Shown here one piece after another: positions 8,771 through 24,139 of a stretch of 55,571 bases of DNA; the stretch's first letter is position 1; every line of letters begins with the position of its first letter. The stretch spans positions 1 to 55,571 of the forward strand of contig PNKH01000044.1 of NCBI GenBank assembly GCA_013822345.1, written 5' to 3'. This DNA is from Isosphaera sp. (GTDB lineage Bacteria > Planctomycetota > Planctomycetia > Gemmatales > Gemmataceae). The position numbers were made by a program, and so were the translations under genes. A model generated the notes under the pieces. The model was not told where the DNA came from. It made no database searches and saw only the letters and a program-made list of their open reading frames with translations.

Positions 8771-9208
8771 TCAGCCCGCGAACGTGCCCGGGCCGACGCG
8801 GAAGTAGCGGGACAGTTTGCCGACCTGGGCGCGGGTCAGCGTGCGCCGCCCGGCCAGCACGTCCGAGACGGTGGACTCCGCGACCCCGGCCCCCTTCGCC
8901 ACCTCCGCCTGGGTGACGCCCTTCCGCCCGATCAGAAAGCGGAGCAGGTCCGCGTCCCCGACCGGCTCGACCGGCACCGCCTCGTCCTCGTAGGCCTCGA
9001 CCAGGTCGCCGAGCACGTCGAGGTAGTCCCGCTCGGGGGCGGACAGGTCGTCCCGGTCGACGAGCGAATCGACGACGGCCACGGCCGCGTCGAGGTCGGC
9101 CGGGGTGCGGAGCGGGCGCAGCGGGAACCGGCGGACCAGGTCGAGGTACCGGTCCTCGGCCCTCCCGTACACCGCCCGGCTCGAGGTCGTGTCCTTCGCC
9201 CGCGGCAT
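8771..9208 (-). CDS. higA: HigA-like antitoxin with XRE-type HTH
   Basis: A 145-residue protein. The C-terminal 55 residues form a Cro/C1-type helix-turn-helix: RKGVTQAEVAKGAGVAESTV then SDVLAGRRTLTRAQVGKLS. The N-terminal part (DLVRRFPLRPLRTPADLDAA) matches the long HigA-type antitoxins that follow HigB. It would bind and neutralise HigB and repress the operon. ATG 9208 is used; a GTG at 9214 overlapping the toxin stop is an alternative adding two residues. Confidence 0.85.
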   Translation of the reverse strand: MPRAKDTTSSRAVYGRAEDRYLDLVRRFPLRPLRTPADLDAAVAVVDSLVDRDDLSAPERDYLDVLGDLVEAYEDEAVPVEPVGDADLLRFLIGRKGVTQAEVAKGAGVAESTVSDVLAGRRTLTRAQVGKLSRYFRVGPGTFAG

Positions 9209-9210
9209 GG

Positions 9211-9501
9211 TCACCCGTCTTTCCACTTCCCCTGGTCGTACTCGGCGTGCGTCAGCACGTGCCGGACGTACAGCTTCCCGCGGTCGAAGTGGATCACCGC
9301 GATCAGCCGGTACTTGTTGCCCCCGATGTCGAAGACCGTGAACTTCCCGACCTGGTCCGCCGAGTGGAACGTCTCGCGCACGTCGGCGAACGTCTCCCAC
9401 TCCGCGTGCCGGGCGACCTGGTACCACGCCTCAAGCGGGGCTCGTGCCCGCGTGTGTTCCTCCCAGAACTCCCGAAGCTTCTTCTTCGAGATGACGTGCA
9501 T
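9211..9501 (-). CDS. higB: HigB family mRNA interferase toxin
   Basis: A 96-residue toxin of the HigB (RelE-fold) family: MHVISKKKLREFWEEH, WYQVARHAEWETFADVRETF, FDIGGNKYRLIAVIHFDRGK and VRHVLTHAEYDQGKW are all family landmarks. It would cleave mRNA on the ribosome under stress. The toxin precedes the antitoxin, the order typical of higBA; the two are separated by at most 2 bp or overlap if the GTG start of higA is used. Confidence 0.9.
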   Translation of the reverse strand: MHVISKKKLREFWEEHTRARAPLEAWYQVARHAEWETFADVRETFHSADQVGKFTVFDIGGNKYRLIAVIHFDRGKLYVRHVLTHAEYDQGKWKDG

Positions 9502-9633: not shown

Positions 9634-10704
9634 ATGAACCACCCCGCCATGACCCCGCCGCTGCTCACCCCCGACCTCCCCGGGGTCGGCGGCCGCATCC
9701 GGGCGCGCGACGAGGACTTCGAGGTCGAGGAGGTGCCGTCGTACGAGCCGTGCGGCAGCGGCGACCACCTGTTCCTGTGGGTCGAGAAGCGCGGCCTGGC
9801 CCCGGAGTTCTTCGCCCGGACTGTTGCCCAGCGGCTCGGCACCCACCCGGGGAACGTCGGCACCGCCGGGCTGAAGGACCGGCACGCCGTCACCCGCCAG
9901 TGGGTGTCCGTCCCGAAGGAGTGCGAGCCGCGGGTCAAGAACGTCGACGGCGGCGGGGTGCGTGTCCTGCGAACCGGGCTGCACACCAACAAGCTGAAGC
10001 CCGGCCACCTCCGCGGGAACCGGTTCCGCGTCCTCGTCCGCGACGCCGACCGCGGCGTCAGCCCCGACCCGGTCCTCGGCCGGGTGCGGGCGCAGGGTCT
10101 GCCGAACTTTTACGGCCCGCAGCGGTTCGGCCGGGACGGCGGGACGGTCGACCTCGGGCTGCAGTGCCTGGCCGGAAAGGCGCCGCGCCGCATCCGGCCG
10201 TTCCTGTTCCGGTTCGCCCTGTCGGCGGTTCAATCGCTGCTGTTCAACGACACCCTCGGCCGGCGGATGGCGGACGGGCTGTACCGGACGGTGCTGGCCG
10301 GGGACGTGATGGCGAAGTGGCCGGCCGGCGGGATGTTCGTGGCGCAGGACGCGGCCGCCGAGCAGCTCCGGTTCGACGCCCGGGAGACGGTGCCGGCCGG
10401 CCCGATGTTCGGGAAGAAGACGTACCCGGCGGAGGGGCTGGCGGCCGAGCGGGAGGCGGCGGTGTTGCGTGACAACGGGCTGTCACTGAACTCGTTCGGG
10501 GGGTTCGGGAAGCTGGTGCTCGGGACGCGGCGGCACAACCTGGTGTACCCCGACGACCTGTCGGCGGGGTGGGAGGCGGACGGGCTGCGGCTGGCGTTCA
10601 CGCTGCCGGCCGGGAGCTACGCGACGGTGCTGCTGCGGGAGGTGATGAAGGCGGCGGTGGACGACGAGCCGGCCGCCCCGGAGGACGACGAGGGCGACGT
10701 GTAG
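9634..10704 (+). CDS. truD: tRNA pseudouridine(13) synthase TruD
   Basis: A 356-residue TruD. It converts U13 of tRNA-Glu to pseudouridine. The catalytic Asp is D82 in GTAGLKDRHAVTRQWVSV; other landmarks are LPNFYGPQRFGRDGGTVDLG and LFNDTLGRR, plus SLNSFGGFGKL in the C-terminal part. The ATG at 9634 gives the family length; an in-frame ATG at 9610 would add eight residues without a better ribosome site. The 3' end overlaps the open frame of the convergent ogt gene by 107 bp. Confidence 0.92.
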   Translation: MNHPAMTPPLLTPDLPGVGGRIRARDEDFEVEEVPSYEPCGSGDHLFLWVEKRGLAPEFFARTVAQRLGTHPGNVGTAGLKDRHAVTRQWVSVPKECEPRVKNVDGGGVRVLRTGLHTNKLKPGHLRGNRFRVLVRDADRGVSPDPVLGRVRAQGLPNFYGPQRFGRDGGTVDLGLQCLAGKAPRRIRPFLFRFALSAVQSLLFNDTLGRRMADGLYRTVLAGDVMAKWPAGGMFVAQDAAAEQLRFDARETVPAGPMFGKKTYPAEGLAAEREAAVLRDNGLSLNSFGGFGKLVLGTRRHNLVYPDDLSAGWEADGLRLAFTLPAGSYATVLLREVMKAAVDDEPAAPEDDEGDV

Positions 10705-11338: not shown

Positions 11339-11450
11339 GCCCGGGGTGTACCACACCCGCGGCCCGTCGACCAGAATGAAAAGAAACCCGAGCGCCGGCC
11401 CGGCCGCGGGCAATAACCTTCCGCACGGACGCGCCACACGGAGCCTCCCC

Positions 11451-13760
11451 ATGCCGACCAGGCCCGCCGGCCTGATGCCCGCCCTCCGCCGGGTCGTCCT
11501 CGCCTCGGCCGCCGCCGAGCGCACCGACGGGCAGCTCCTCACGGCGTTCGTCGCCGACCGGGACGCGGACGCGTTCGGGGCCCTCGTCCGCCGGCACGGG
11601 CCGATGGTCCTCGGCGTCTGCCGCCGGGTCGTCCGCGACCGGGCCGCCGCCGACGACGCGTTCCAGGCGGTGTTCCTGGTCCTCGCCCGCCGGGCGGCCG
11701 GGGTGCGGCCGCGGGAGCGGGTCGGGAACTGGCTGTACGGGGTGGCGCACCGGACGGCGCTGAAGGCCCGGGCGGTCCTGGCCCGCCGGCGGTCCCGCGA
11801 GAAGCAGGTGGACGCCATGCCCGAGCCGGCCGCGCCGGACCTCCGGGGACTCACGTCCCCCGGCTCGCCGGGGGACTGGGCCGACCTCCGCCCGGTGATC
11901 GACGAGGAGTTGGCCCGGCTCCCGGAGAAGTTCCGCACCCCGGTCGTCCTGTGCGACCTGGAAGGGCGGCCGCAGCGGGAGGTGGCCCGGCAGTTGGGGC
12001 TCCCGCCGGCCACCCTCGCCACCCGCCTGGCGGCCGCCCGCCGGACCCTCGCCGCCCGCCTCTCCCGGCGCGGGGTCACGCTGTCCGGCGGGGCGGTCGC
12101 CGCCCTGCTCACCGCCCACGGGACGGCCGGGGCCGTTCCCCCGGCGTCCGTCCACGCGCTGGTCCGCGCCGTCGAGGCCGTGGTCGCCGGGGGGGCGGTT
12201 CTCCCCGGGGTGTCGGCCGCCGCCGTCCAACTTTCCGAAGGGGTGATCCGGATGATTCTGCTCTCCAAGCTGAAGGCGGTGGCCGTGGTCGCGCTGACCG
12301 CCGCCGCCCTGTCCGGCGGGCTCGGCCTCGGGCTGGTCCCGGCCGCCGCCGGCGGCGACGACCCGGTCCCGGCCGTCCGGTTCGCCCCGGCCCCACGCCC
12401 GGCGGCCGCCGCGCCGGCGGCGCCGGAGGACGACGCCGCGTTCCTGAGGCGGGTCGTGTTCGACCACCGGGGTGACGAGCCGACCGACATCGAGGCGTTC
12501 TTCTTCGCCGCCGACCCGGACGACAACAAGCGGGCGAAGTTGGTCGGGTGGCTGGCGGAGGACGGCGACATCCGGGCGTTCGCCGCGAAGGAACTCGCCG
12601 TCCCGGCCGAGCGGGTGCAGGTCCTCCGGCTGGCCGGCGAGAAGGCCGGCCGGGTGGTCGTGGTCGTCGACGGGGACGGGCCGCACGCCGAGGCGAAGGG
12701 CCTCGCCTTCTCCCCGGACGGGAAGCGGCTCGCCGTCGAGGTCCGGCCCGACGTGGTCGCCACCCCGGCGACCGCGGTCCGGGGGGTGAAGGTGGAGGCC
12801 GAGGAGGAGGTCGTGGTGGCCGCGGGGCCGGACGGGAAGGTCGTGCGCGTCCGGGTGGTCCGCGCCGGGGACGCCAAGCCGGCGGACGTGCTGTACGGGT
12901 TCGAGGCGGCCGGCGACGGCGCGAGGCCGGCGGTGGTCCGGGTGCTCAAGGCCGTGAACGAAGGGGCCGTCCGGGTGTGGGACGCGGCCGACGGCAAGCA
13001 GTACCGGTCGGTCGTGGGCCAGGTGGTGTCCGACCTGTCGGCGCGGACCGAGTCGGACCTCGACTTCCTGAAGCGGGTCACGCTGGCCGCCCGGGGCACC
13101 CCGCCGACCGCCCTGGAGGAGAAGTACTTCGGCGAGGACAAGGACCCGAAGAAGCGGGAGAAGCTGGTCGACTCGCTGCTGAAGGAGCCGGCCGTGGCGA
13201 AGAAGCTCGGGGACGACTTCAAGCGGCGGGTGCTCGGCGGGCCGTTCTTCTACGAGGCGGTGAAGGGGCAGAAGTTCACGGCCCCGTTCGAGAAGGGCGT
13301 GCCGTTCTTCGAGGCCAAGCCGCTCGACGGGAAGGGGCCCCGGTTCTTCGAGTTCAAGATCGAGCTCGGCCCGGACGGGAAGCCGGTCGCGGGGACGCCC
13401 GGGGTGAAGGTGGTGCCGGTGCCGCCGGTCCCCCCCGTGCCGCCGGTGCCGCCGGTGCCCGCGACCCCGGCCGTGAGGGCGGTGAAGGTGCCGGCCCCGC
13501 CGCCGGCCGACCCGCTCGGGAGGCTGGTCGACGAGCTGCTGGCGGCGAGGAAGTCGGACGCCGAGGTGCTGGAGGCGCTCACCCTGGTGACCGCCGGGCG
13601 GCTGCCGACGGAGGCCGAGAAGCGGCTGGCCCTCGGGCTGGTGGCGAAGGCGAACGACCGGAAGGCGGCGTGGGCCGAGGTGGCCAGGGCGATGGCCGGG
13701 GACGCCAAGAAGGACGTGATCCGGAAGGTGACCCCGCCGCCGGTCCCGCCGGCGAAGTGA
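11451..13760 (+). CDS. ECF sigma factor fused to a membrane anchor and DUF1549/DUF1553-like segments
   Basis: A 769-residue protein. Residues about 28-110 are sigma-70 region 2 (DADAFGALVRRHGPMVLGVC, VGNWLYGVAHRTALKAR) and about 150-205 are region 4 (LARLPEKFRTPVVLCDLEGR, then QREVARQLGLPPATLATRLA). A single hydrophobic helix follows at about 268-300. Beyond it come two repeats resembling the start of DUF1549 (AFLRRVVFDHRGDEPT at about 330; DFLKRVTLAARGTPPT at about 537), a Pro-Val repeat, and a tail (EALTLVTAGRLPTEAEKRLA) resembling the end of DUF1553. Planctomycete ECF factors with C-terminal extensions are known. Here the extension would be periplasmic and could sense or anchor. ATG 11451 gives the sigma domain its normal start. 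Confidence 0.85.
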   Translation: MPTRPAGLMPALRRVVLASAAAERTDGQLLTAFVADRDADAFGALVRRHGPMVLGVCRRVVRDRAAADDAFQAVFLVLARRAAGVRPRERVGNWLYGVAHRTALKARAVLARRRSREKQVDAMPEPAAPDLRGLTSPGSPGDWADLRPVIDEELARLPEKFRTPVVLCDLEGRPQREVARQLGLPPATLATRLAAARRTLAARLSRRGVTLSGGAVAALLTAHGTAGAVPPASVHALVRAVEAVVAGGAVLPGVSAAAVQLSEGVIRMILLSKLKAVAVVALTAAALSGGLGLGLVPAAAGGDDPVPAVRFAPAPRPAAAAPAAPEDDAAFLRRVVFDHRGDEPTDIEAFFFAADPDDNKRAKLVGWLAEDGDIRAFAAKELAVPAERVQVLRLAGEKAGRVVVVVDGDGPHAEAKGLAFSPDGKRLAVEVRPDVVATPATAVRGVKVEAEEEVVVAAGPDGKVVRVRVVRAGDAKPADVLYGFEAAGDGARPAVVRVLKAVNEGAVRVWDAADGKQYRSVVGQVVSDLSARTESDLDFLKRVTLAARGTPPTALEEKYFGEDKDPKKREKLVDSLLKEPAVAKKLGDDFKRRVLGGPFFYEAVKGQKFTAPFEKGVPFFEAKPLDGKGPRFFEFKIELGPDGKPVAGTPGVKVVPVPPVPPVPPVPPVPATPAVRAVKVPAPPPADPLGRLVDELLAARKSDAEVLEALTLVTAGRLPTEAEKRLALGLVAKANDRKAAWAEVARAMAGDAKKDVIRKVTPPPVPPAK

Positions 13761-13919: not shown

Positions 13920-14537
13920 ATGCGCTCCCGCCGCCTGGCCGGCGCCGCCGTCCTGTTCGCCCTGGCCGCCCGCCTGCCGGCCGCCGACCCCGACCCGAAG
14001 GCCCTGGCCGCCGCGGCGGTGAAGGCCGCCGGCGGGGAGGACAAGCTGCTCAAGCTGTTCCGGATCAAGGAGCGGCTGAACGTCTCGGGCGACCCGGGGA
14101 AGAAGGGGAACGAGCGGGTGTCGGTGCTGGAGCCGCCGGGCCACTGGTGGGTCGGCAAGACGGACCGGGTGGCCGAGGAGAAGGAGCCGGCGACGTACCT
14201 GGTCTGGGCGTGGACCCTCGGCATCTTCACCGACCCGAAGACCAAGCTGGAGGCGATCCCGGAGGTGACGGAGAACGACAAGCCGGCGGTCGGGGTGCGG
14301 GTGAGCGGGACGGTCACCCCGGCGATGGACGTGTACTTCGACAAGGCCGACAGCCGGCTGGTGCGGGTCGACTGGCGGAACGACGTCACCCGGTTCAGCG
14401 ACTGGAAGGAGCACGACGGGGTGAGGTACCCGGCGAAGGTGGTCGGGTACCGGAAGAACACCGGCAAGCCGTGGTACTTCACCGAGATCCTGGAGCTGGA
14501 GCGGCTGAAGGAGCTGCCGGCCGGGCTGAAGCGGTAG
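13920..14537 (+). CDS. Exported hypothetical protein (lipoprotein-sorting-like fold suspected)
   Basis: A 205-residue protein with signal peptide LAGAAVLFALAARLPAAD. The mature part begins ALAAAAVKAAGGEDKLLKLF and continues with strands such as PPGHWWVGKTDRVAEEKEPA and VYFDKADSRLVRVDW, ending with YRKNTGKPWYFTEILELERL. The pattern (helix then a half-barrel of strands, ending in a T-E-I-x-E motif) recalls LolA/LppX-type lipid-binding folds often seen in planctomycete exported proteins. This is inference. GGAGG lies 9 bp before the ATG. Confidence 0.7.
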   Translation: MRSRRLAGAAVLFALAARLPAADPDPKALAAAAVKAAGGEDKLLKLFRIKERLNVSGDPGKKGNERVSVLEPPGHWWVGKTDRVAEEKEPATYLVWAWTLGIFTDPKTKLEAIPEVTENDKPAVGVRVSGTVTPAMDVYFDKADSRLVRVDWRNDVTRFSDWKEHDGVRYPAKVVGYRKNTGKPWYFTEILELERLKELPAGLKR

Positions 14538-18465: not shown

Positions 18466-21441
18466 TCACAGCGCCTTGGCCGCCGCGTCCTCCTTCCGCT
18501 CCAGCTCGTCGTCCAGTTGCGCCACCTCCGCGCTCTCCTTCTTCGACTGCCACCACGCCCACCCGACGGCCACCAGCGCCACCGCCGCCACCACCCCGCC
18601 GACCGCCGGGTTCCCCACCCCGTCCGTCAGGTTGTACAGGATCACCAGCGGCAGCGCCAGCAGCGCGACCATGTTCATCACCTTGATCAGCGGGTTGATC
18701 GCCGGACCCGACGTGTCCTTCAGCGGGTCTCCGACCGTGTCCCCCGTCACACTCGCCTTGTGCTTCTCCGACCCCTTCCCGGTCTTCTCCGTCCGCGGCT
18801 CGTCCTCGATCATCTTCTTCGCGTTGTCCCACGCCCCGCCGGCGTTCGACATGAACACCGCCATCAGCTGCCCGCTCAGGATCATCCCGGCCAGGAACCC
18901 GCCCAGCGCGAACGGCCCCAACAGGAACCCGACCACCAGCGGCGTCCCGATCGCCAACAGCCCCGGCCCGATCAGCTCCTTCTGTGCCGTCCCGGTGCAG
19001 ATGCCCACCACCCGCCCGTAGTCCGGCGTCTTCTTCCCGGCCATGATGTCCGGGTCGTTGAACTGCCGCCGGCACTCGAACACGATCAGGTACGCCGCCC
19101 GCCCGACCGCCCGGATCGTCATCGCGCTGAACAGGAACGGGACCGCCCCGCCGATCAGCATCCCGATGAACACCAGCGGCTCCGCCACCGTCAGCTTCGA
19201 CGCCCCGCTGGTGAAGTCGCCGATCAGCAGCTGCCCGATCTTCTCCTCGCTCCCGGTCACCAGCACGGCGATGAAGCTGGCGAACAGCGACACCGCGGCG
19301 ATCACCGCCGACCCGATCGCGATCCCCTTGGTGATCGCCTTCGTCGTGTTCCCGACCGCGTCGAGGTCGGCCAGGATCTGCCGGGCGGCCGTGTTCTCCG
19401 CCGGCGACAGGTACCCGGGGTCGCCGGGGGCCAGGTCGGTGTTCCCCGGCCCCTTGTTGAACCCCATCTCGCCGATCCCGTTCGCGTTGTCGGCGATCGG
19501 CCCGAACACGTCCATGCTGATCGTGTCCCCGGTCAGGGTGAGCATCCCGATCCCGCACATCGCCACCCCGAACGCCATGAACAGCAGGTGGTCCGGGTGC
19601 CCGATCAGGTACACCGACCCGAAGATCGCGGCCCCGATGATGAGCACCGCCCACACGGAGCTCTCGAGGCCGAGTGCCAGCCCGGAGATGATGTTGGTGG
19701 CGTGCCCGGTCCGGCTGTTCTTCACCACCTCCCGAACCGGGCTGTACTCGGTGCTCGTCCAGTACTCGGTGCACTTGTTCAGCAGCACGGCCAGCAGGAT
19801 GCCCAGCAGGCAGCAGAACGCGACGCGCATGTTCAGCCCGGGCGACAGCGGGACGTGGTACCGGGCCTGGGCGACCTGGAGCAGGGTGAGGTCGCACTTC
19901 GCCTCCTCCGGGACCGAGTGCCCGTACTCGGCGAGCCGGGCCCGCTCCTCCGGCTTGAGGTTGGTGACGGTGAGCTTCGTGCCGGCCAGTTCCTCGCGCT
20001 TCGCCGGGTCCAACTTCTGCCACGCCCGGACGGCGGCGTCCCGCCACCCGTCCACCCGGTCCTCGAGCTTGCGGGTGTTCTCCGCGTTCCGCAGCGGCCC
20101 GCTCCGCAGCCGCCGCAGCTCGGCCACCTCCTCCGCCACGGTCCTGCCGGCCGGCAGGCCCGGCGGGGCGGTCAGGCCGAGGGCCGACCGGAGCGGGGGC
20201 GCGTCCGGGAGCGGGGGCGCGTCGTACAGCTCCTGGTACAGCCCCTTGTCGATCCCGCGCTCGACGACGTACGCGGCGTCGAACTGGAGGTACACGTACC
20301 CGAGGCCCAGGAACCCGACGGTGCTGATCGCGGCACTCCGCCAGAACCCGTGGTTGATCGAGTGCATCGCGGTGGTCGCGTTCCCGGTCGTCATCCCGCG
20401 GCCGACCAGGGCGGTCGAGATCATGCTCGCCACCACCCCGACCGCCTGCACCAGGAGCGGGAAGACCATCCCCTTGTACCCGAACGCGGCGTACCCGAGC
20501 ATCACCGCCGCGACCATCGTGACCGAGTAGCTCTCGAACACGTCGGCCGCCATCCCGGCGCAGTCCCCGACGTTGTCCCCCACGTTATCGGCGATCGTCG
20601 CCGCGTTCCGCGGGTCGTCCTCGGCCATCGACTTCTCGACCTTCCCGACCAGGTCGGCGCCGACGTCCGCGGCCTTGGTGTAGATGCCGCCGCCGACCCG
20701 CATGAACAGGGCGAGCAGCGACCCGCCGAACCCGTACCCGATCAGGATCTCGTAGGCGAGCTCGCCGAACACCAGCAGGATGAGCGCCCCGCCGAGCAGC
20801 CCGAGCCCGCAGGTGAACATGCCGGTGATGGTGCCGGTCTGGTACGCCAGCCGCATCGCCTCGCCGAAGCTCCGCCGGGCGGCGGCCGCGACCCGCAGGT
20901 TGCCGGCGGTGGCCAGCCGCATCCCGGTGAACCCGACGGCGGCCGAGAACAGGGCGCCGATGAAGAACGCGACGCCGCGGCCGACGGCCACCGTCCGCAT
21001 CGCCTCCTCGGACGCCGCCCCCGGGTCCACGCCCCACGGCCACTTGCTGGCGACGATGGCGACGGTGAGGACGACGATGAGGAGGCCGACGACGGTGAAC
21101 TGGCGGCGGAGGTAGGCGTTGGCCCCGTCCCGGACGGCCGTGGCGACGGCCTGCATGGCGGGGGTGCCGGTGTCGGCGGCGTACACCCGCCGCATCAGGA
21201 GGGCGGCGTACCCGAGGCCGGCGACGGCGACGGCCAGGCAGCCGAGGAGGCCGAACTTCTCGCCGGGGCCGTAGTTGCCGGAGGAGAAGAACCCGAACGG
21301 CTCCCACCCGGCCCCGAACACGGCGAGCGAACCCCCGGACGGCTCGGCGGCCCCGAGGAGCCCGAGCGGGAGGGCGCAGAGGACGGCGAGGAGCCAGGGG
21401 AAGCGGCGGCCGGCCGGTCGGGAGCGGCGGTGGGGCGGCAT
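18466..21441 (-). CDS. hppA: Membrane-bound proton-translocating pyrophosphatase, enlarged
   Basis: A 991-residue integral membrane pyrophosphatase coupling PPi hydrolysis to ion pumping. Catalytic motifs: KAADVGADLVGKVE (residues 256-269), DNVGDNVGDCAGMAADVFES (285-304) and DNANGIGEM (651-659). The GNTTKA motif at 697-702 has Lys where K+-dependent enzymes have Ala, so this is predicted to be a K+-independent H+ pump. It is about 200-300 residues longer than most relatives: an N-terminal extension and a hydrophilic insert of about 150 residues (388-537) between membrane helices. The two ends of the insert are predicted on one side of the membrane. A divergent gene starts 272 bp upstream. Confidence 0.93.
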   Translation of the reverse strand: MPPHRRSRPAGRRFPWLLAVLCALPLGLLGAAEPSGGSLAVFGAGWEPFGFFSSGNYGPGEKFGLLGCLAVAVAGLGYAALLMRRVYAADTGTPAMQAVATAVRDGANAYLRRQFTVVGLLIVVLTVAIVASKWPWGVDPGAASEEAMRTVAVGRGVAFFIGALFSAAVGFTGMRLATAGNLRVAAAARRSFGEAMRLAYQTGTITGMFTCGLGLLGGALILLVFGELAYEILIGYGFGGSLLALFMRVGGGIYTKAADVGADLVGKVEKSMAEDDPRNAATIADNVGDNVGDCAGMAADVFESYSVTMVAAVMLGYAAFGYKGMVFPLLVQAVGVVASMISTALVGRGMTTGNATTAMHSINHGFWRSAAISTVGFLGLGYVYLQFDAAYVVERGIDKGLYQELYDAPPLPDAPPLRSALGLTAPPGLPAGRTVAEEVAELRRLRSGPLRNAENTRKLEDRVDGWRDAAVRAWQKLDPAKREELAGTKLTVTNLKPEERARLAEYGHSVPEEAKCDLTLLQVAQARYHVPLSPGLNMRVAFCCLLGILLAVLLNKCTEYWTSTEYSPVREVVKNSRTGHATNIISGLALGLESSVWAVLIIGAAIFGSVYLIGHPDHLLFMAFGVAMCGIGMLTLTGDTISMDVFGPIADNANGIGEMGFNKGPGNTDLAPGDPGYLSPAENTAARQILADLDAVGNTTKAITKGIAIGSAVIAAVSLFASFIAVLVTGSEEKIGQLLIGDFTSGASKLTVAEPLVFIGMLIGGAVPFLFSAMTIRAVGRAAYLIVFECRRQFNDPDIMAGKKTPDYGRVVGICTGTAQKELIGPGLLAIGTPLVVGFLLGPFALGGFLAGMILSGQLMAVFMSNAGGAWDNAKKMIEDEPRTEKTGKGSEKHKASVTGDTVGDPLKDTSGPAINPLIKVMNMVALLALPLVILYNLTDGVGNPAVGGVVAAVALVAVGWAWWQSKKESAEVAQLDDELERKEDAAAKAL

Positions 21442-22508: not shown

Positions 22509-22624
22509 CGGTCGACCCGGCGGGCGCGGATTGTGGCAGTCACCTTCTTGCGGGTGCGGTCGGACGGCGGTACGCTGCGGCGCGTGACCCCATCGCCCGC
22601 GACCCCCTCCCGTGAGGTGTGCCG

Positions 22625-24139
22625 ATGTCCGATCGCGTGTCCCGCCGCGGGTTCCTCGCGGCCGCCGGGGTGGTCGGGCTGACCGCGGCCGACGCGGCGG
22701 CGTTCGGCCGGCGGCGCCGGGCGTGCCTGCCCCAGCCGTGCCCGCCCGGGCCGTGGCCGCCGCCGGGCCCCGGCCTGCGGGTGCGGCAGAACGCCAACGC
22801 CCTCACCCCCGGGCAGCTCGACTCCCTCCGCAGGGGGGTGGCCGCCATGAAGGCGCTGCCGGACACCGACCCGCGGGGCTGGCGGTTCCAGGCGAACGTC
22901 CACTGGACGACCGGCTCGCCCTCCAACCCGCTGTTCAACCAGTGCCAGCACGGCACCCTCCACTTCCTCTCCTGGCACCGGGCCTACCTGTACTTCTTCG
23001 AGCGGATCCTGCGGGCCCAGTCCGGCGACCCGACCCTCTGCCTGCCGTACTGGGACTGGGCCGCCGACCCCGCCCTGCCCGCCGCCTACCGCCTCCCGGG
23101 CGACGCGTCCAACCCCCTGTGGCACCCCGGGCGGACGGTGAACGACGGGTCGCCGCTCCAGCCGGAGGACGTGTCCGGGGTCGGCGGGGCGCTGGCGGCG
23201 ACCGCGTACCCCGGGCCGTTCGGGTTCAACCGGCTGCTCGAGGGGAACCCGCACGGGACCGTCCACGGGGCGGTGGGCGGGGACATGGGGTCGGTCCCGA
23301 CGGCCGCCCGGGACCCGGTGTTCTGGCTGCACCACGGGAACGTCGACCGGCTGTGGGACGTGTGGCTGGGGCAGGGCGGGCGGGCGAACCCGGCCGACGC
23401 GGCCTGGCTGGATCGGACGTTCCCGTTCGCGGACGAGTCGGGCGCGACCGTCCAGGCGCGGGTCGGGGACTACATGTCCTCGGCCCGGCTCGGGTACCGG
23501 TACGACAACGCCCCGCCGTCCGGCGCCGCGGTGGCGGTGGCGACGGCGGTGGCCGAGGCCGCCCCGGCCCCGCCGCGGGTGGTGGCCCGGTCGGCCGCCG
23601 ACGGGCCGCCGGAGAAGGCCGAGAGCAAGCCGCTCGGGTTCGCGGTCGAGCGGGTGCGGGTGAAGCCGGTCGACCCGGCGGCCCGCCAGGCGCTGGACGC
23701 CCGGCCGGCGGCCGGGGCGGGCCGGGTGTACGTCCGGGTCGAGGGGGTGTCGGCGGCCGCCGCCCCGTCCGGGGTGCGGTACGGGGTGTACCTGAACGCC
23801 CCGGCCGACGCCCTGCCCGGGCCGGACCGGCTGCGGTACCACGTCGGCACGATCAACTTCTTCGGCAAGACCCGGGCGGAGCTGAAGCTGCCGGGCCACG
23901 GGCACGCCGGCCACGCGGGTGCGGCCGGGGGGACGTTCGACGAGACGTTCGACGCGACCGCGGTGGTGGCCCGGTTGCGGCAGGCCGGGCGGTGGGACCC
24001 GGACGCCCTGGACGTGGTGATCATGCCGGTCGCCACCGTCCCGGTCGGCGGGACGGCGGAGGCGACGCAGGGCCGGGCGGCCGCCGACCTGAAGGCGGCC
24101 GACGTGCGGTACCAGCGGGTCTCGGTGCTGCAGCAGTAG
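22625..24139 (+). CDS. Tat-exported tyrosinase-family copper protein
   Basis: A 504-residue protein. A twin-arginine signal (SRRGFLAAAGVVGLTAADA) is followed by a Pro/Cys-rich stretch and the di-copper tyrosinase domain. CuA ligands are likely H93, H109 and H118 (in NQCQHGTLHFLSWHRAYLYF); CuB ligands are likely H210, H214 and one of H236/H237 (NPHGTVHGAVGG; DPVFWLHHGNVDRLWDVW). PYWDWAADPA is also typical. The C-terminal third (about 300-504) resembles the plant polyphenol-oxidase tail that shields the active site. Substrate is unknown; o-diphenol or phenol oxidation is the family role. The ATG at 22625 is used rather than the GTG two codons upstream. Confidence 0.9.
   Translation: MSDRVSRRGFLAAAGVVGLTAADAAAFGRRRRACLPQPCPPGPWPPPGPGLRVRQNANALTPGQLDSLRRGVAAMKALPDTDPRGWRFQANVHWTTGSPSNPLFNQCQHGTLHFLSWHRAYLYFFERILRAQSGDPTLCLPYWDWAADPALPAAYRLPGDASNPLWHPGRTVNDGSPLQPEDVSGVGGALAATAYPGPFGFNRLLEGNPHGTVHGAVGGDMGSVPTAARDPVFWLHHGNVDRLWDVWLGQGGRANPADAAWLDRTFPFADESGATVQARVGDYMSSARLGYRYDNAPPSGAAVAVATAVAEAAPAPPRVVARSAADGPPEKAESKPLGFAVERVRVKPVDPAARQALDARPAAGAGRVYVRVEGVSAAAAPSGVRYGVYLNAPADALPGPDRLRYHVGTINFFGKTRAELKLPGHGHAGHAGAAGGTFDETFDATAVVARLRQAGRWDPDALDVVIMPVATVPVGGTAEATQGRAAADLKAADVRYQRVSVLQQ

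Follow-up and report, generated by a model that had tools for sequence, protein, structure and literature searches.

Planctomycetes have many ECF sigma factors, and how these are wired is the question raised by a single open reading frame of 769 amino acids (positions 11451..13760, forward strand, as are all features below) in the window, a 55,571-nucleotide stretch of an Isosphaera sp. contig (family Gemmataceae, order Gemmatales). The initial annotation of this gene, made from its letters alone, described an ECF sigma factor fused through a membrane helix to pieces of DUF1549 and DUF1553, domains of exported planctomycete proteins, and proposed that such a chain would either signal across the membrane as one protein or need proteolysis to free its sigma part. 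Fused, membrane-tied ECF sigma factors and planctomycete ECF sigma factors with WD40 tails are already known (PMC8999054, PMC8567305). Comparison of the gene with its orthologues and paralogues brought out an unexpected feature at the junction of its two halves.

The sigma half

The main ATG is preceded at 7 nt by GGAG (11440..11443). Sigma-70 region 2 spans residues 45-107 (11583..11771; PF04542, E = 6.5e-10) and region 4 residues 150-200 (11898..12050; PF08281, E = 1.4e-10), both above cut-off and both as initially described, while no Pfam model of region 3 was listed for this protein; by this domain content, regions 2 and 4 without region 3, the product is classed as an ECF sigma factor. 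The best PDB matches for residues 40-203 are likewise ECF sigma factors. The only cysteines in the protein are Cys57, within region 2, and Cys168, within region 4, and their equivalents are present in all 16 orthologous sequences that have an intact N-terminus.

Fragments of exported proteins

The two motifs likened at the outset to the start of DUF1549 were recovered by Pfam as two stretches of PSCyt2/DUF1549, jointly at E = 1.7e-13 over the whole protein; the better of the two, at residues 535-589 (13053..13217), corresponds to positions 22-76 of a profile of 209. Scored alone, this second copy reaches 36.9 bits and passes the Pfam cut-off of 29.8, whereas the first copy (approximately residues 322-368, 12414..12554) reaches 23.6 bits (E = 5.7e-5) and falls below it. 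Both stretches were present in each of the seven orthologues scanned with Pfam. Modelled in isolation, copy 2 is helical with a mean pLDDT of 53.8.

For the tail, which had been compared to the end of DUF1553, the profile searches diverged. Pfam has no DUF1553 match in either the whole protein or the isolated tail, and for this reason we built our own profile, taking the C-terminal 72 residues of 11 proteins of DUF1549/DUF1553 type encoded in the same genome. Calculated for a nominal 10,000 sequences, its E-value for residues 692-746 (13524..13688) is 7e-9, and each of the 17 orthologous sequences, among them the window gene, is matched at no worse than E = 5e-5. Among controls, one of 2000 shuffled sequences scored (E = 1.9) and none of 17 reversed sequences did. 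The profile comparison proposed with the annotation is thus borne out for DUF1549, with copy 2 passing unaided, and by Pfam is negative for DUF1553, the likeness of the tail being seen with our own profile. The initial annotation had read the motifs correctly, the tail that Pfam overlooks among them.

Set against PSCyt2/PSD1 proteins (DUF1549-DUF1553), the window protein carries the start of DUF1549 (approximately positions 17-76 of 209) twice and the end of a DUF1553 protein once, and lacks most of both domains; a full-length DUF1549 of 209 positions was not encountered, nor was the CxxCH motif that full DUF1549/DUF1553 proteins of the same genome possess. On this comparison the pieces are fragments, comprising some 60 DUF1549 positions twice over and a short tail, and not full domains. 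Residues 384-525 (12600..13025), between the repeats, are poorly conserved and faintly WD40-like, with a Pfam match to WD40 at 384-431 (E = 0.08) and a PDB match to the designed propeller Tako8 at 454-525 (E = 0.0016). The WD40 match is somewhat clearer in one orthologue, L083 (E = 4.9e-5, still below cut-off), and the stretch weakly resembles a decayed WD40 blade.

The joining of a sigma factor to these pieces through a hydrophobic segment, as first described, recurs in other genomes. A search with residues 326-769 recovered this layout from 18 of 95 Gemmataceae genomes (its own among them), which belong to 3 of 39 genera. Sixteen of the 18 are complete from sigma factor to tail; one (G092), truncated by the end of its contig, is without the sigma half, and another (G018) has the sigma half split over two frames and was left out of the orthologue alignment. 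Beyond the sigma half mainly three islands can be aligned, namely the two DUF1549 copies and the tail, separated by variable and partly proline-rich stretches.

A constant half and exchangeable cargo

The genome that contains the window encodes 22 further genes, one of them in two frames, that have the first 300-odd residues in common and differ in their outside halves. Twenty of these were scanned with Pfam (L002 and L005 were left out), and the outside halves include WD40-type propellers in five, secretin N-type domains in two, DUF1559 in one and an OEP-like stretch in one; the other 11 matched sigma or helix-turn-helix models alone at E = 0.001. Members of this gene family occur in 66 of 102 genomes of the order at E = 1e-45, with 20 or more in eight genomes, counts that are lower bounds, since scoring was limited to 22 candidates in each genome. 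Beyond the order, 3 of 293 other genomes drawn from the phylum match at E = 1e-40, all from one taxonomic family (7 candidates scored per genome), and at that threshold the gene family appears rare outside the order. The members of this large family thus have the sigma-plus-membrane half in common and differ in what they carry outside, and DUF1549 is one cargo among several.

For family-wide comparisons we used a discovery set of 83 genes and a further set of 60. Members from other genomes, 120 in number, were drawn from the best-scoring among the matches listed and are not a random sample. A cysteine in sigma region 2 is kept in 139 of the 143 genes (82/83, with one gap, in the discovery set and 57/60 in the further set) and one in region 4 in 142 (83/83 and 59/60). 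A cysteine in each of these regions together with C-terminal WD40 extensions is described for group ECF57, of which Singulisphaera acidiphila provides an example (PMC8999054). The arrangement of regions 2 and 4, the long C-terminal extension and the one cysteine in each region are common to ECF57 and to the genes studied here, and the five WD40-type paralogues mentioned above extend the likeness. The extension of the window protein has a weak WD40 match and is made of DUF1549/DUF1553 pieces. The passages of PMC8999054 consulted make no mention of a membrane segment that carries an internal start signature. By the two cysteines we regard the window gene and its family as ECF57-like.

Selection on the RNA at the junction

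A methionine stands directly before the hydrophobic segment in 128 of the 143 family genes. In the window gene it is Met268 (12252..12254), a candidate internal ATG start codon in frame with the main one, and 8 nt upstream of it lies AAGGGG (12238..12243), which resembles a Shine-Dalgarno (SD) element. We counted as SD-like those letters that match the complement of the anti-Shine-Dalgarno sequence. After filtering at 65% identity the discovery set was reduced to 63 genes, of which 55 have the junction methionine. A match of at least 6 nt precedes that methionine in 28 of the 55, compared with 8 of 232 other internal methionines of the same genes (p = 9e-17) and with 3.4 of 55 expected from synonymous resampling.

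Codon choice points the same way. Glycine at the site is encoded by GGA in 37 of 50 cases, against 4 of 59 at a control position, the conserved Glu-Gly of an LEG motif in sigma region 4, and 205 of 2202 overall; glutamate is encoded by GAA in 26 of 29 cases, against 27 of 53 at the control. Elsewhere the commonest glycine codon is GGC, and the codons at the site are unusual for GC-rich genes. Among the 17 orthologous sequences the codons before the methionine are GAA-GGA in eight, GAA-GGG in six and other GGA or GGG forms in three, and the element reads AAGGAG in 8/17, compared with AAGGGG in the window gene. In that gene the last letter is G or C in 98.4% of codons, and of the 12 (among 769) that end in A or T, four fall within codons 259-270 (hypergeometric p = 1.6e-5, for a codon window chosen after the fact). 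Folding of the mRNA is also weaker at the site than in the remainder of the gene (z = +1.71) and weaker than in synonymous versions of the site (z = +1.31; n = 55).

Since match length and codon choice had been picked after seeing the data, we turned to the 60 further genes for replication (47 after the same identity filter, 41 with the methionine). The SD-like match of at least 6 nt was found before 21 of 41 junction methionines and 1 of 175 others (p = 7e-17), GGA was used in 28 of 33 cases at the site and 5 of 45 at the control, and the contrast in folding with the rest of the gene recurred (z = +1.70). The preference for GAA in this set was not clearly distinct from the control (20/22 against 25/33). 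Duplex energy showed no excess over synonymous sequences in the 17 orthologues (mean -7.94 against -8.01), in our view because the anti-SD can pair with GAG-GGN too; exact match length and codon choice were used in its place. The signal is not uniform: site matches are shorter than 6 nt in about half of the genes, and 6 of 55 have none of the motifs listed.

Methionine and motif tend to be lost together. In the discovery set the two are linked (35/55 against 1/8; Fisher p = 0.017), significantly if modestly, and 12 of 14 non-redundant genes without the methionine are also without an SD-like match of at least 5 nt. One gene, L155, retains AAGGAG and has GTG, itself a usable start codon, at the methionine position. 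The motif occurs as well in all three genes from a distant taxonomic family of the phylum; in a second family of the order, AAGGAG precedes a methionine in 3 of 15 genes, GGAG in 3 more and neither in 9.

Taken together, these comparisons make RNA-level selection at the junction well supported, and the junction has the appearance of an internal start, in frame, from which an exported product without the sigma part would be made. SD-like letters, an ATG or GTG, an open mRNA and an adjoining signal sequence would all be used by this reading. Its main doubt is spacing. Element and ATG are 11 nt apart in 41 of the 55 genes and 8 nt apart in five (8 nt being the spacing in the orthologue group of the window gene), whereas at the starts of open reading frames in the window a GGAG- or GAGG-type element, where present (7 of 19, several of the other 12 being guessed starts), lies 4 to 7 nt away; an internal start may therefore be weak or regulated. 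As a further control, the main starts of the orthologues match over 4 or 5 nt in 16 of 16, by what is a weak criterion.

SD-like elements are also a cause of programmed pauses in translation, and the main rival explanation builds on this: a single product, the full-length tethered sigma factor, would be made, and the element would slow the ribosome to aid folding of the sigma part or insertion into the membrane. Programmed pauses are described in membrane-protein genes of E. coli (PMC4359368), the element adjoins the hydrophobic segment and its distance from the ATG exceeds that of normal starts, all of which suits a pause. In E. coli, however, according to the part of PMC4359368 consulted, the later pauses trail the beginning of the first membrane segment by 35 +/- 13 codons, and an early pause was not seen in proteins whose first such segment follows at least 80 residues; here the element precedes the segment. 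Nor does a pause need an ATG, the joint loss of motif and methionine in 12 of 14 genes, or unfolding of the mRNA beyond synonymous expectation. We consider a pause unlikely as the sole explanation, at perhaps one chance in several.

Far less probable is that the motif is kept for some other reason at the level of nucleic acid, as an internal promoter or as a crossover site for the swapping of domains. Its position on the border between constant and exchanged halves speaks for such an origin. Yet the constraint is on SD-like letters, which are mostly absent where the methionine is absent, and upstream of the junction most members share only some 45-55% identity with the window protein, so that no homogenisation is seen.

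In the literature that we searched, an internal start has not been reported for such genes, though some main papers on planctomycete or ECF classification may describe it.

A signal-sequence-like segment

The product of an internal start at Met268 would begin with a segment that resembles a signal sequence. Residues 268-300 (12252..12350) comprise K-L-K, a hydrophobic core, a Gly-rich end and P-A-A-A (12339..12350), with a cut expected after Ala300. On the Kyte-Doolittle scale the most hydrophobic 19-mer begins at residue 269 (mean 1.98), which agrees with the single membrane helix initially annotated; a weaker 19-mer at residue 241 (1.72) leaves room for a second hydrophobic segment and makes the count of one less firm. 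Substrates of signal peptidase I have a positively charged n-region, a hydrophobic h-region and small residues at -3 and -1. When the 17 orthologous sequences were aligned on the last alanine, position -1 was Ala in 17, position -3 was Ala in 14 and Val in 3, position -4 was Pro in 13, and position -2 held eight residue types. By that rule the segment conforms to the substrate pattern in 17/17 sequences and may, in the orthologue group of the window gene, be a signal sequence that is cut and not a permanent anchor.

The protein is rich in alanine, and 14 column pairs of the alignment pass a loose version of the A/V-x-A pattern; in three of these, the present site being one, at least six residue types occur at the intervening position. 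As a feature of the whole family the pattern was considered and rejected, being present in 43 of 63 diverse members against 36.7 in shuffles. Given this near-shuffle frequency and the background of the loose pattern, we claim the site for the orthologue group alone. M50 and S26 proteases are both encoded in the same genome.

Alternatively, the tether could be permanent, with signalling by conformation or clustering and no proteolysis, and the exported module could serve mainly to dock to DUF1549/DUF1553 complexes at the surface. The pieces match the two ends of DUF1549/DUF1553 proteins and so could bind the partners of those proteins, and ECF57 sigma factors have been proposed to work through protein interaction and conformational change (PMC8999054). 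A sigma factor fixed in the membrane would, on the other hand, need to reach its promoters there, and conservation of A/V-x-A in all 17 orthologous sequences speaks against a permanent tether. We hold this alternative to be improbable, though worth keeping in mind.

A proposed two-product gene

The reading that we prefer is that of a two-product gene, from which a membrane-tethered full-length sigma factor and a short exported sensor module would both be made; we put its probability at roughly 0.55. The same, with odds a shade better than even, may apply to many ECF57-like sigma genes in the three taxonomic families, each with a nested in-frame start ahead of an internal signal sequence. The further steps of the model set out here, which starts from what the sequences show (the domain order, its conservation, the selection on the RNA, the conserved cleavage-like site and the presence of both protease families), are rated lower than the two-product reading itself. 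In the long form, the internal signal sequence would tether the ECF57-like sigma factor to the membrane's inner face, with the exported sensor module, composed of DUF1549/DUF1553 pieces, on the other side. The SD-like element and ATG268 directly before the signal sequence would give rise to a short, sensor-only copy. On sensing or binding a partner or ligand outside, the module of the long form might expose the cleavage-like site to signal peptidase, acting as the site-1 protease, after which an M50 site-2 protease would free the sigma factor. The short form would compete or co-assemble with the long form through the same module and so set the threshold. We infer the making of both products, the cleavage, the thing sensed and the modulation of the long form by the short one from these sequence features, and have drawn the route of release by analogy with RsiP, RsiV and IutY.

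Membrane tethering agrees with work on a relative, in which some ECF sigma factors, which may or may not belong to the present family, were recovered in detergent-soluble and not in soluble fractions (PMC8567305). In IutY (ECF243) and ECF48/52/53, a sigma factor is fused to a membrane anti-sigma factor, and proteolysis releases it or is presumed to do so (PMC8999054). Those proteins resemble ours in combining a sigma factor, a membrane segment and an outside part within a single chain; ours differs in having no anti-sigma or zinc-finger domain by Pfam (a search that could miss a divergent one) and in that proteolysis would be expected here by analogy. With the anti-sigma factors RsiV and RsiP, it is signal peptidase that makes the site-1 cut (PMC6066255, PMC8844934); the idea of a signal-peptidase site after a membrane segment as the start of ECF sigma release is common to both cases, whereas RsiV and RsiP are separate proteins and here the sigma factor itself would be the substrate. 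A precedent for the nested start is found in phage endolysins, for which internal in-frame initiation yields full-length and C-terminal products that in some cases co-assemble (PMC9430671). Two products with the same stop codon and possible co-assembly are the common ground; the endolysin products were shown by experiment and ours are predicted from sequence, and the endolysins, as described there, have neither sigma factor nor membrane segment.

The layout fits either of the two modes initially proposed, signalling by one transmembrane protein or proteolytic release, while the family with swapped cargo, the start signature at the membrane segment and the signal-peptidase-I-like site were not foreseen. 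If the internal start is real, current annotation would overlook an additional, exported product in a large part of this family, and the family would constitute a defined transmembrane switch, encoded by one gene and equipped with its own sensor-only form. One mRNA would then yield sensor-only and sensor-plus-sigma proteins in a set ratio, providing each paralogous switch with its own decoy or partner, and the DUF1549/DUF1553 version would tie such a switch to an abundant family of exported planctomycete proteins.

Gene neighbourhood and related sequences

A conserved gene neighbourhood was considered for the orthologue group and rejected: TruD is nearby at 4 of 17 loci, the neighbour encoded at 8771-9427 at two and a 205-aa neighbour at none, several loci being cut by contig ends. 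No free-standing homologue of the short form was present among the matches listed. A weak match (31%) was observed in a Hyphomicrobiaceae MAG, in one contig scan.

Variation among paralogues and orthologues

Among the paralogues that share the sigma-plus-membrane half of the window gene within the same genome, two ECF57-like members carry Secretin_N after the membrane segment, in three stretches in one (L009) and in a single stretch in the other (L015). Another member of the family is spread over two frames that overlap (L024 and L028; G000:C5:58282-59153) and match positions 7-97 and 87-326 of the query, apparently owing to a frameshift; a DUF1559/SBP_bac_10 domain makes up its C-terminal half, joined to a sigma factor. 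The DUF1553-type tail also occurs without the other parts, as a 160-aa ORF on contig C76 of the source genome (L031:7955-8434, minus strand), which was recognized by a profile built from same-genome DUF1549/DUF1553-type proteins (E 2e-16) and had no match in a Pfam scan.

Among the orthologues, the sigma half of L069 (genome G018) is divided between two reading frames, reflecting either a frameshift or a sequencing error. Two orthologues from genus g37, L083 (G090) and L085 (G088), contain weak FG-GAP-like stretches between both DUF1549 copies, together with a weak WD40 blade in L083, and so the middle part may itself be swapped.

Gene neighbourhood

Upstream of the window gene is a TruD gene (9634-10704, plus strand), and at four of 17 loci (G014, G088, G090 and G091) the orthologue likewise has TruD no more than a few kb away. 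Directly downstream is a short, exported-looking protein of 205 aa (13920-14537, plus strand), for which a Pfam scan returned no match and no counterpart adjoins the orthologues at the loci compared. Further genes in the window, identified with Pfam, encode a membrane H+-pyrophosphatase (18466-21441, minus strand) and a tyrosinase-type protein (22619-24139, plus strand).
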